Origin: Asaia siamensis
GTDB taxonomy: Bacteria > Pseudomonadota > Alphaproteobacteria > Acetobacterales > Acetobacteraceae
Length of the DNA stretch: 64,000 nucleotides
Direction of reading: 5' to 3'
Assembly: GCF_014635085.1 (NCBI RefSeq)
Contig: NZ_BMCH01000001.1
Coordinates: 403,151-467,150, forward strand
Positions 49,273 through 52,275 of this stretch are shown here, one piece after another. The translations under genes and the position numbers were made by a program. The stretch's first letter is position 1. Each line of letters begins with the position of its first letter. Under the pieces are notes generated by a model. The model was not told where the DNA came from, ran no database searches, and was given only the letters and a program-made list of their open reading frames with translations.

Positions 49273-50640
49273 ATGAATAAAGAGCGCAAGGCAGAGCGTA
49301 AGCTGTTCGGCACAGATGGTATTCGGGGGACGGCCAATAGCTTTCCGATGACGGTTGATGTGGCGCTGCGTCTCGGTCAGGCCGCAGGGCTCTACTTTCG
49401 TCGCGGTGCCCATCGCCATAGTGTCGTTTTGGGCAAGGATACGCGGCTTTCGGGTTACATGATCGAAAGCGCTCTGGTCTCGGGATTCCTCTCTGCCGGG
49501 ATGGACGTCATTCTCGTCGGTCCTCTGCCGACACCTGCGATTGCCATGCTGACCCGCTCGCTGCGCGCCGATTTGGGCGTGATGATCTCAGCGTCGCATA
49601 ATCCGTTCGGCGATAACGGCATCAAGCTTTTCGGCCCTGATGGTTTTAAGCTGTCTGACGAGGTCGAGGCAGAAATCGAAGATCTCATGGACCAGGATCT
49701 GACAGCCCAGATGGCGCCGCCGGAAGAAGTGGGGCGTGCCTCGCGGCTGAATGATGCTGCCGGTCGCTACATCGAGGCAGCCAAGGCTTCTTTCCCGAAA
49801 GGGTCACGACTCGAAGGTCTGCGTATCGTGCTGGATTGCGCCAATGGCGCTGCCTACCGCGTGGCGCCTACGGCCCTTTGGGAACTAGGGGCTGAGGTCA
49901 TCAAGATCGGCTGTGAGCCGAACGGGGTGAACATCAACGCAAAATGCGGCTCCACCTGTCCGGAACCCCTGCGCGAGGCGGTGATTGCTCATAAGGCGCA
50001 TCTTGGCATCGCGCTCGATGGTGATGCCGATCGCGTCATTATTGTCGATGAAAAAGGACAGATCGTCGATGGCGATCAGATCCTCGGCCTGATTACCCTG
50101 TTCCTGCAGAAAAGCGACCGTCTCGGCAGTAATGATGCAGTTGCCACGATCATGTCCAATCTCGGTCTTGAAAAAAAGCTGGCCGAGCATGGCGTGACTC
50201 TTCATCGCACAGCGGTGGGCGATCGATACGTCGTCGAGAAAATGCGTGAGCGTGGAATCAAGCTTGGTGGCGAGCAATCGGGACACATGATCCTGTCCGA
50301 TTTCGCGACAACGGGTGATGGGCTCATCGCAGCCCTTCAGGTGCTTGCTGTCCTCGTTGAGGAGGGGCGCCCCGCAAGCGAGATCCTGCGTGTTTTCGAG
50401 CCCTATCCGCAATTGCTGCGCAATGTCCGCTATCAGGGTGGCGATCCACTTCAGACCGAAATCCTTGCCGAGGCACGACGTGCGGCAGAGGCGCGGCTTG
50501 GCACGCAGGGGCGTCTTGTCCTGCGTAAAAGCGGTACCGAGCCGCTGATTCGCGTGATGGTGGAGGCAGAAGATCCGGCTCTGGTTGAAGAGATCGTCTC
50601 TTCGATCTGCGATGCGGTCCAGAAGGCGGTTGCGGTCTGA
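49273..50640 (+). CDS. glmM: Phosphoglucosamine mutase GlmM
   Basis: The 455-residue enzyme converts glucosamine-6-phosphate to glucosamine-1-phosphate for cell wall precursors. [11 protein letters not shown] is the N-terminal signature, the phosphorylated serine is Ser108 in [15 protein letters not shown], the metal loop is [10 protein letters not shown], the sugar-binding GGEQSGHMI follows, and [12 protein letters not shown] is the phosphate loop. The ATG at 49273 follows AGAAGGACTGTC, almost the same leader as secA. The stop overlaps the thiD start by one base (TGATG). Confidence 0.96.
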
Positions 50641-51434
50641 TGAAGGGCCGGGTGCTGATCGTTGCCGGAAGCGACTCTGGTGGTGGCGCGGGGATTCAGG
50701 CCGATATCAAGACGGTCAGTGCCTTTGGGGGCTTCGCAACGACGGCGATCACAGCTGTCACCGCGCAGAATACATGCGGGGTAAATGCGATCGCCTATCT
50801 GTCGCCTGGCATGGTGGCCGATCAGATGAGGGCGGTGCTTGAGGATATCGGGGCTGATGTCATAAAGCTCGGCATGCTGGGTAATGCCGAGATCATGGAG
50901 GCGGTGTGCGATACGCTTGCGCGCTATCCTTCCATACCCTGCGTGATCGATCCGGTGATGGTCGCAACCAGCGGGGCGCGGCTGATGACTGAAGACGGCG
51001 AGGCTGCATTCCGACGTCTCTACGCCCATTGCTTCATGTTGACGCCCAATCTGCCTGAACTCGAAGTTCTGAGCGGACATTCGCTCTCGACGTCACAGGA
51101 GATGAGAGAGGCTGCAAGCGAGGTCATGAAAAGTCAGGATATTGCGTGGATCCTCGCAAAAGGCGGGCATCTGCCAGGAGAGGACGTGATCGATATCCTG
51201 CTTTCAAAGCAGCACGAACGGCAGTTTTGGGACCGGAAGATCGAGACGCTGCATACGCATGGGACAGGTTGCACCCTGGCGAGTGCTATTGCCGTGTGCC
51301 TTGCCCAGGGCGAGGGCGTAGAGCGGGCGGTGGAGCGCAGCAGGGCTTATGTCCGCCATGCAATCCTGCAGGCACCACCTTTTGGAAAAGGAAGCGCCCG
51401 GCCGATGAATCATATGCATCAGAAGGAAGGCTGA
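50640..51434 (+). CDS. thiD: Hydroxymethylpyrimidine/phosphomethylpyrimidine kinase ThiD
   Basis: The 264-residue kinase of thiamine synthesis shows VLIVAGSDSGGGAGIQADIKT (substrate binding), GFATTAITAVTAQNT, DPVMVATSGARLM, TPNLPELEVLSG and the anion hole HTHGTGCTLASAIA. It phosphorylates HMP and HMP-phosphate. It is coupled to glmM, and its 3' end overlaps the convergent CtrA-like gene by 16 bases. Confidence 0.94.
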   Translation: MKGRVLIVAGSDSGGGAGIQADIKTVSAFGGFATTAITAVTAQNTCGVNAIAYLSPGMVADQMRAVLEDIGADVIKLGMLGNAEIMEAVCDTLARYPSIPCVIDPVMVATSGARLMTEDGEAAFRRLYAHCFMLTPNLPELEVLSGHSLSTSQEMREAASEVMKSQDIAWILAKGGHLPGEDVIDILLSKQHERQFWDRKIETLHTHGTGCTLASAIAVCLAQGEGVERAVERSRAYVRHAILQAPPFGKGSARPMNHMHQKEG

Positions 51435-52162
51435 AGGGACGATACCGTCAGTTTGTTCTGTTCCGTCGTTGCGTCAGGCAAAAGCGGTTTGCTGTCGTCG
51501 CGTAGCACATAGCCACGCCCCCAGACTGTGCCGATCAGATGCCCGGCGCCAAACTGCTGCAGTTTTCTGCGCAATTTGCAGATGAAGACATCGATGATCT
51601 TCATCTCCGGTTCATCAATGCCTCCGTAAAGATGGTTCAGAAAAGCATCCTTCGTAAGAACATTGCCCCTGCGCAATACGAGAAGCTCAAGGATGGCATA
51701 TTCCTTGCCTGTAAGCTGCACGGGGTTGCCATCGACAGAAGCGCTCTTGGCATTCAGGTCGAGCGAGAGGGGGCCGACCGTCATGACCGTGGTGCTGAAG
51801 CCGCGCGAGCGGCGCAAGACCGCCTGAAGACGAGCCAGAAGCTCCTCTGAATCGAAGGGCTTCGTGATGTAGTCATCAGCCCCGGCGTGAAACGCTTTTA
51901 TTTTGGCTTGCGCCCGGCTTAGTCCACTCAGAACAATAATCGGCGTCTGTATTTGGGTTTTTCGAACGCGCCTGATGACTTCGTATCCTTCGAGGTCTTC
52001 GAGAGTCAGTTCGGTCAGGGCAAGATCGTAATCGTAATGGCGGAGCATATCGATTGCTTCATGCCCTGTATGAGCATGATCAACAGTAATGCCGCCCTGT
52101 TTGAGGGTTTTGATCAGCGCATGAGCCGCAGCTTGATCGCTTTCCACAAGAAGGAGGCGCAT
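51419..52162 (-). CDS. CtrA-family response regulator with Glu at the phospho-acceptor site
   Basis: The 247-residue OmpR-type regulator aligns strongly with CtrA. The DNA-binding half is nearly diagnostic: LTGKEYAILELLVLRRGNVLTKDAFLNHLYGGIDEPEMKIIDVFICKLRRKL and TVWGRGYVLRD, the last being the CtrA end. In the receiver, CtrA's YDYDLILLDLNLPD reads YDYDLALTELTLED here, so the phosphorylated Asp51 is Glu51 (codon GAA at 52012-52010), and acidic-pocket Asp8 is Ser. The conserved LSG and TKPF remain. It may be permanently active. ATG 52162 follows AGGAGATTGATGAG. A canonical ctrA may exist elsewhere, so I leave the symbol blank. Confidence 0.88.
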   Translation of the reverse strand: MRLLLVESDQAAAHALIKTLKQGGITVDHAHTGHEAIDMLRHYDYDLALTELTLEDLEGYEVIRRVRKTQIQTPIIVLSGLSRAQAKIKAFHAGADDYITKPFDSEELLARLQAVLRRSRGFSTTVMTVGPLSLDLNAKSASVDGNPVQLTGKEYAILELLVLRRGNVLTKDAFLNHLYGGIDEPEMKIIDVFICKLRRKLQQFGAGHLIGTVWGRGYVLRDDSKPLLPDATTEQNKLTVSSLQPSF

Positions 52163-52259
52163 CTCATCAATCTCCTGGGTTGATGATGGTTTGGTACTAC
52201 CTAAGGTTGCTGTCGGCAAGCAAAATACTTTCTTTCACTGAAAACATTTCCTCGAATTA

Positions 52260-52275
52260 GTAACGAGTTTTTAAC
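52260..52275 (+). promoter_or_regulatory. CtrA-box-like site upstream of the CtrA-like gene
   Basis: GTAA-CGAGTTT-TTAAC matches the CtrA consensus TTAA-N7-TTAAC with one mismatch. It lies about 100 bases before the CtrA-like start in the gap shared with the divergent unknown gene. Autoregulation is inferred. AT-rich gaps can produce such matches by chance. Confidence 0.35.

Follow-up and report, generated by a model that had tools for sequence, protein, structure and literature searches.

The ctrA locus

The window, a stretch of 64,000 nucleotides of the Asaia siamensis genome, contains on its minus strand a ctrA gene (Table 1) whose product combines an OmpR-type architecture with a best NCBIfam match to the CtrA model NF045991 (residues 1–222 against model positions 1–223, E 3.8e-95) and for these reasons is regarded as a CtrA ortholog; it should be noted that the score of 317.9 bits is below the model cut-off of 350. 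The receiver domain is recognized by PF00072 with an E value of 8.3e-25 despite Glu51, and the CtrA receiver of PDB entry 4qpj (chain residues 35–152) corresponds to residues 1–118 of the window protein over an equal length. The initial annotation had placed Glu at the CtrA phosphorylation site and Ser at residue 8 of the acidic pocket, and the codons, GAA and AGC respectively, confirm both readings. Glu7, Asp9, Ser79, and Lys101 are kept. The protein begins with MRLLLVESD and ends with PSF, and so is without the degron-like AA tail, which in CtrA is a ClpX degron. Having Glu51 and Ser8, it possesses neither the Asp51 nor the intact acidic pocket of a phosphorelay-controlled CtrA, and its receiver domain belongs to the aspartate-less type.

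This is the only CtrA-grade protein of the Asaia siamensis genome. A search of the genome for a second canonical ctrA found none, the runner-up match being only 37% identical, so that a second paralog is ruled out and the earlier suggestion that the window protein might be a paralog with a new input is unsupported. A flagellar region of the same genome (contig C1, ~21.6 kb) holds a further OmpR-type regulator, L003 (positions 1393–2190), beside an ORF that we take to be flgD-like. L003 is 37% identical to the window CtrA over 35–233; its DNA-binding domain is CtrA-like, its receiver has degenerated to the point that Pfam finds no receiver domain, and the protein presumably resembles the Rem/FtcR-type flagellar regulators.

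The neighbors of ctrA, named from their translations, are presumed to resemble ftsH, glmM, and thiD, and parts of the order ftsH-glmM-thiD-ctrA are common to some of the 18 loci compared; an upstream ORF near ctrA has no Pfam match. The 3′ ends of ctrA and of the ORF at 50640–51434 on the plus strand, which we take to be thiD-like, overlap by 16 bases (window positions 51419–51434). The consensus of the CtrA box is TTAA-N7-TTAA. The candidate box TTAAAAACTCGTTAC, at −112, is also found in four Asaia and in Swaminathania and in none of 10 other loci examined; with up to one mismatch allowed, the window holds 4 box matches against 2.8 expected, which is not above chance. A box without mismatch occurs once in locus L299 and is absent from L300. 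A leader element (gCAACCttaGGTAGTAcc in the window), of the pattern ACAACC-N3-GGTAGTAAC, lies upstream of ctrA (~50 bp) in most of the Glu51 genera examined and was not seen in the two Saccharibacter. A similar sequence, ACACG-N-ATAGGTGGTAT, precedes ctrA in a number of Asp51 relatives, and the element is possibly an old promoter or leader element of ctrA.

Table 1. Coordinates of ctrA and associated features in the window
Feature	Position	Strand	Basis
ctrA, 247-aa OmpR/PhoB-type response regulator with Glu51	51419..52162	-	translation, NCBIfam, Pfam, PDB 4qpj match
Receiver domain, residues 4–112	51827..52153	-	Pfam PF00072 (Response_reg)
Codon 8, AGC (Ser); Asp of the acidic pocket in 60/61 Asp51/ChpT+ CtrAs	52139..52141	-	codon read, comparison
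Codon 51, GAA (Glu), phospho-acceptor position	52010..52012	-	codon read
Codon 101, Lys, switch lysine, kept	51860..51862	-	coordinates computed from frame
Winged-helix DNA-binding domain, residues 145–220	51503..51730	-	Pfam PF00486 (Trans_reg_C)
3′ end of ctrA, Phe codon and stop	51419..51424	-	translation
Leader element gCAACCttaGGTAGTAcc	52193..52210	-	comparable sequence ahead of ctrA in most of the Glu51 genera examined
Candidate CtrA box TTAAAAACTCGTTAC upstream of ctrA	52260..52274	-	one mismatch to TTAA-N7-TTAA

Residue 51 and the phosphorelay in Acetobacteraceae

The distribution of residue 51 was read in a sample of 120 genomes of the family, 108 of which have a CtrA match at E 1e-50 and 12 of which have none. 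Two genomes with both ChpT and a CtrA match (G116 and G123) were left out, and each genome was represented by its best CtrA copy (the second copies L151–L154 being set aside); in the resulting 106 genomes, Asp occupies residue 51 in 77 and Glu in 22, with Ala in 2, Arg and Ser in 1 each, and 3 proteins cut. The Glu51 proposed from the window alone thus recurs in the alignment of Acetobacteraceae CtrA. The Arg51 (L147) and Ser51 (L150) proteins are very diverged, at 41 and 38% identity with the window CtrA; both are included in the set of 26 non-Asp51 CtrAs used below and omitted from the set of 24. In the two Ala51 CtrAs (L139 in G009 and L140 in G069), position 101 is also changed. Three ctrA genes (L145 in G065, L148 in G084, and L149 in G038) have no readable N-terminal receiver part; a contig end truncates L148, and L145 contains two stops inside the match, with ChpT present in its genome.

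In a named collection, the best 80 of 496 relatives comprise 46 with Glu51, 33 with Asp51, and 1 that is cut, and the 46 occurrences rule out a sequencing error or chance as the source of Glu51. Judged by genus name, which covers only the genera among these best 80 of 496 relatives, Glu51 is present in all 21 Gluconobacter and all 11 Acetobacter loci (A. estunensis counted twice), in 5 of 6 Asaia (one cut), in 3/3 Neokomagataea and 2/2 Saccharibacter, and in the one locus each of Swaminathania, Brytella, Acidomonas, and Tanticharoenia. Glu51 CtrA is a state common to many acetic-acid-bacterial genera and is no private mutation. Outside the family, in a class-wide sample of 86 genomes, Asp51 is found in 55 and Glu51 in 2 of the 57 genomes counted, with one CtrA copy per genome (G132 has two copies). 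The two Glu51 proteins from outside the family, L359 (G200) and L380 (G199), have altered pockets and come from alphaproteobacterial genomes of 1.1–1.2 Mb.

In the alphaproteobacterial cell cycle, phosphorylation of CtrA, to which ChpT delivers the phosphate, is the textbook example of a switch. The ChpT model PF10090 gives a match at E 0.001 in 75 of the 120 family genomes, above the cut-off in 71; the 68 genomes with ChpT-sized matches were counted as having ChpT, and the 7 whose only match lies in an ORF of 625–941 aa (G000, G009, G016, G023, G033, G095, and G120) were dropped, such ORFs being taken, as a matter of judgment, for hybrid kinases. On this count, a ChpT-sized match is present in 61 of the 77 Asp51 genomes of the family but in none of the 26 non-Asp51 genomes, including the window genome (Fisher p ~1e-13, uncorrected for kinship). 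When all PF10090 matches at E 0.001 are counted, the proportions become 65/77 and 3/26 (G000, G009, and G016; the match in G009 is just at the cut-off and embedded in a kinase), and the contrast remains at this worst case. The class-wide sample, searched at E 1e-5, gives 49/55 for Asp51 compared with 0/2 for Glu51 genomes. A ChpT-sized match is also absent in 16 of the 77 Asp51 genomes of the family. Within the family, ChpT is present in 60 of the 67 genomes whose CtrA combines Asp51 and Lys101 with acidic residues at 8 and 9, and in 1 of the 10 whose CtrA has Asp51 and one of residues 8, 9, and 101 changed. In the window genome, the search for chpT returned no ChpT-sized match, only a hybrid kinase whose PF10090 match, at 21.6 bits, is below the cut-off.

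It should be recognized that the association of Asp51 with ChpT rests on few independent origins (a tree-aware test, from whose tree L146 was also left out, comprised 5 pairs, with ChpT differing in at most 1, and was uninformative) and that the relay conclusion also rests on one judgment about what counts as ChpT. Among the best 80 of 496 relatives, ChpT lies within ~6 kb of ctrA in 0/46 Glu51, 2/33 Asp51, and 0/1 cut loci, a count that carries no information, since at least 18 Asp51 genomes have ChpT and ctrA on one contig at a distance, as read by eye, of mostly 6–7 kb. A CckA-like query at E 1e-90 matches in 41 of the 61 Asp51/ChpT+ genomes, missing 20, and in 2/16 Asp51/ChpT− and 0/26 non-Asp51 genomes; it has no match in the window genome, a result to be read alongside the 20 of 61 misses. 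Two window-genome kinases with the HDFNNLL pattern match CckA models mainly in the kinase half, with scores of 288 and 397 bits against a cut-off of 1000. The CckA model NF046020 matches at 1e-60 in 110 of the 120 genomes, never above its cut-off, and has 3 matches in the window genome, but it cannot tell CckA and related kinases apart. The relay independence proposed in the initial annotation is, as judged from genome content, well supported for Glu51 CtrA; the absence of CckA from non-Asp51 genomes is less sure, and CckA-ChpT, rather than ChpT alone, was probably lost upstream of Glu51 CtrA. It is highly improbable that phosphorylation persists by way of an undetected divergent relay or at another residue, such as Asp9 or a Ser/Thr. 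ChpT diverges fast, substitute phosphotransferases are proposed in the accessible text of earlier studies (PMC2877005, PMC8116508), and hybrid kinases are present in the window genome, but the acceptor has been replaced by Glu51, the pocket is altered by Ser8, and the PF10090 counts given above, both in the family and outside it, differ between Asp51 and non-Asp51 genomes.

Changes in the receiver of Glu51 CtrA

In the 24 non-Asp51 CtrAs, residue 51 is Glu in 22 and Ala in 2, and residue 8 is Ser, Asn, Pro, Thr, Gly, His, Tyr, or Glu in 23 and Asp in 1; Asp8 is found in 60 of the 61 Asp51/ChpT+ CtrAs. Lys101 is present in 16/24 of the former and 61/61 of the latter, the AA tail in 3/24 and 40/61, respectively (family sample), and residue 80 is Gly in 58 of the 61 Asp51/ChpT+ proteins and varied among the non-Asp ones. 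Among the best 80 of 496 relatives, all 11 Acetobacter loci have Glu51 together with EDD at residues 7–9, Lys101, and an AA tail, residue 51 being the sole key receiver residue that is changed, and Gluconobacter and Asaia have the pocket DSD or ESD and an AA ending in 0/21 and 0/6 loci, respectively. Genome G016, which is closest to Acetobacter fallax and A. oeni (75–79%), also has Glu51 with EDD and has no ChpT-sized match. RcdA was sought as an explanation of the tail difference with PF07323 (DUF1465), which we take to represent it; it was found in Caulobacter and in 0 of the 120 family genomes, and the result is uninformative for the tail difference because the Asp51 genomes are without it too.

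A quick tree of 106 proteins has 8 changes of the Glu51 label, 5 of which are forced by starred branches. These changes involve three Asp51 proteins with altered pockets (L053, L054, and L128) and the Ala51 protein L140, which lie inside Glu51 clades, and also a CtrA with Glu51 and His8 (L070 in G081), which is placed among Asp51 relatives and is perhaps a separate origin of D51E. As 53 of the 103 inner branches, about half, are open and no root was assigned, the direction and order of the changes are matters that we infer.

The favored explanation, held with some reserve, is that the acetic-acid-bacterial CtrA may be a naturally fixed phosphomimetic (Asp51 to Glu) freed from its phosphorelay, and constitutive activity through Glu51 is probable. 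The main rival, which we consider rather unlikely, is that the domain is a pseudo-receiver in which Glu51 is incidental, loss of the relay having relaxed the active site and a constitutive dimer having arisen via other changes; it sees in Glu the closest neighbor of Asp, one base change away. The fall in receiver identity to 0.50 and the Ala51 in 2 of the 24 non-Asp CtrAs agree with such relaxation, as does, in the accessible text of PMC4395418, the precedent of ChxR, whose DNA binding is not abolished by changing its Glu, and the finding that receivers lacking the Asp most often (26%) have Glu in its place. However, residue 51 stays Glu in 22 of the 24 proteins while residue 8 diversifies, and the 11 Acetobacter loci among the best 80 of 496 relatives have changed residue 51 and none of residues 7–9 and 101. 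The argument from retention of Glu is weakened by the proteins within Glu51 clades that have left Glu, of which L140 has Ala and the others Asp.

Asp96, Asp97, Arg111, and Arg118 are conserved in 24/24 and Glu107 in 23/24 of the non-Asp51 CtrAs, residues that presumably form the α4-β5-α5 salt bridges of the OmpR family. Identity within these 24 proteins is 0.78 in the DNA-binding domain and 0.50 in the receiver, compared with 0.83 and 0.71 within the 61 Asp51/ChpT+ proteins. This pattern of conservation in the dimer face and the DNA-binding half fits a receiver held in an active dimer. In Asaia/Swaminathania, the mean dN of the receiver is 0.056 compared with a dS of 1.45, the latter being near saturation, and the Glu51-type receiver remains under purifying selection. 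Persisting selection, together with the diversity at residue 80, would also agree with a receiver re-purposed to bind some new ligand or a partner such as an anti-activator, with Glu51 as part of a new switch; Rem is an example of a regulator with an anti-activator. Such a change of function is improbable, as no apparent partner gene adjoins ctrA, the neighbors being ftsH-, glmM-, and thiD-like genes and an ORF without a Pfam match.

Under the fixed-phosphomimetic explanation, Glu51 would keep the receiver in an active-like dimer that binds TTAA-N7-TTAA boxes without phosphorylation, and the output of CtrA would be set by its expression, by protein turnover (the AA tail being still present in Acetobacter), and by partner proteins. 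The first step would have been D51E in an intact pocket, as in Acetobacter, which either made the relay dispensable or came after its loss; the loss of Asp8 and, in most lineages, of the AA tail would have followed. We give an even chance to the wider proposition that the classic phosphomimetic mutation was fixed group-wide in this master regulator of the cell cycle and the kinase-phosphotransferase relay discarded, turning a signal-gated switch into a protein-amount switch, with Acetobacter representing the first step (D51E on its own) and Gluconobacter and Asaia later ones (loss of the pocket and the degron).

Boxes were sought in the flagellar-region loci of 15 genomes of the Glu51 group (residue 51 is unread in one of them, Asaia G001), the genus of box-bearing genomes being taken from 100% CtrA identity. 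TTAA-N7-TTAA occurs 11 times in these loci, and 9 of the occurrences are ≤200 bp upstream of an ORF, compared with 0–4 for 15 other spacings in the same loci. The box precedes fliF in Acidomonas and Tanticharoenia, flhA in Neokomagataea (one of two ORFs scanned), and an ORF of 513–521 aa in five Asaia, which is an MCP-signalling protein in the window genome and was equated with it in the other four by length and place. Of the 9 upstream boxes, 5 represent a single Asaia site and 2 a single Neokomagataea site, so that there are about four independent sites. The exact box is absent from 5 of the 15 Glu51-group flagellar regions, including that of the Acetobacter-like G016, and from six Asp51 flagellar regions with a GC content of 0.70–0.78, which consequently provide no Asp51 baseline. 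fliF is present in 16 of 22 Glu51 genomes and absent in 6, so that CtrA is also retained without fliF.

Relation to known systems

The incompleteness of the CtrA relay in this part of the class has been described before. In the accessible parts of the two studies, Brilli et al. (2010) report that a cluster of Rhodospirillales has a degenerate relay lacking chpT (PMC2877005), and Tomasch et al. (2021) find chpT, cckA, and divL in 27–36% and ctrA, gcrA, and ccrM in 72–82% of Rhodospirillales genomes (PMC8116508). Missing chpT and cckA were there attributed to detection limits, lower selection, or substitute phosphotransferases; the accessible text of neither paper mentions a substitution of residue 51, and the accessible text of PMC2877005 uses neither “aspartate” nor “phosphorylation site”. 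The open-licence papers in PMC yielded none that is visibly about Glu51 CtrA in acetic-acid bacteria. Glu51 CtrA offers one explanation of why chpT and cckA are absent from many Rhodospirillales genomes. In many acetic-acid bacteria, evolution seems to have locked and rewired a familiar bacterial switch, with a seeming intermediate state surviving in Acetobacter, and a lineage that keeps CtrA without the residue that accepts the phosphate amounts to a natural experiment on the question of which functions depend on the relay.

The window CtrA is, like the CtrA of Caulobacter and Brucella, an orthologous full-length regulator, and its substitution is that of the engineered ctrA D51E allele, a laboratory phosphomimetic (PMC12186491, accessible text). 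Unlike that allele, Glu51 in the acetic-acid bacteria is natural, extends over many genera, occurs without a ChpT-sized match, and is the only form in the window genome; Asaia and Gluconobacter, in addition, have an altered pocket and are without the AA tail. A 2025 Caulobacter paper describes, in its accessible part, ctrA D51E, a stabilized allele, and a double allele as chromosomal replacements (PMC12186491), and since the double allele exists, the combination found in Asaia, Glu51 without an AA tail, need not be lethal.

The Rem-type flagellar OmpR regulator L003 also pairs a CtrA-like DNA-binding domain with a receiver that is without phosphorylation residues, but it is a separate flagellar-cluster protein, only 37% identical to the window CtrA and with no Pfam receiver match. 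The ChxR-like aspartate-less regulators of the OmpR family, in the accessible text of the sources, have Glu at the acceptor position and are expected to act independently of phosphorylation, as is proposed here (PMC4395418, PMC12632262, PMC3960148); a 2025 review notes, as a point against the favored explanation, that the residue-D hypothesis has been disproved in some cases (PMC12632262, accessible part). In contrast with ChxR, the family that has the Glu51 proteins also retains phospho-competent CtrA orthologs together with their relay, and the transition can therefore be traced one step at a time.
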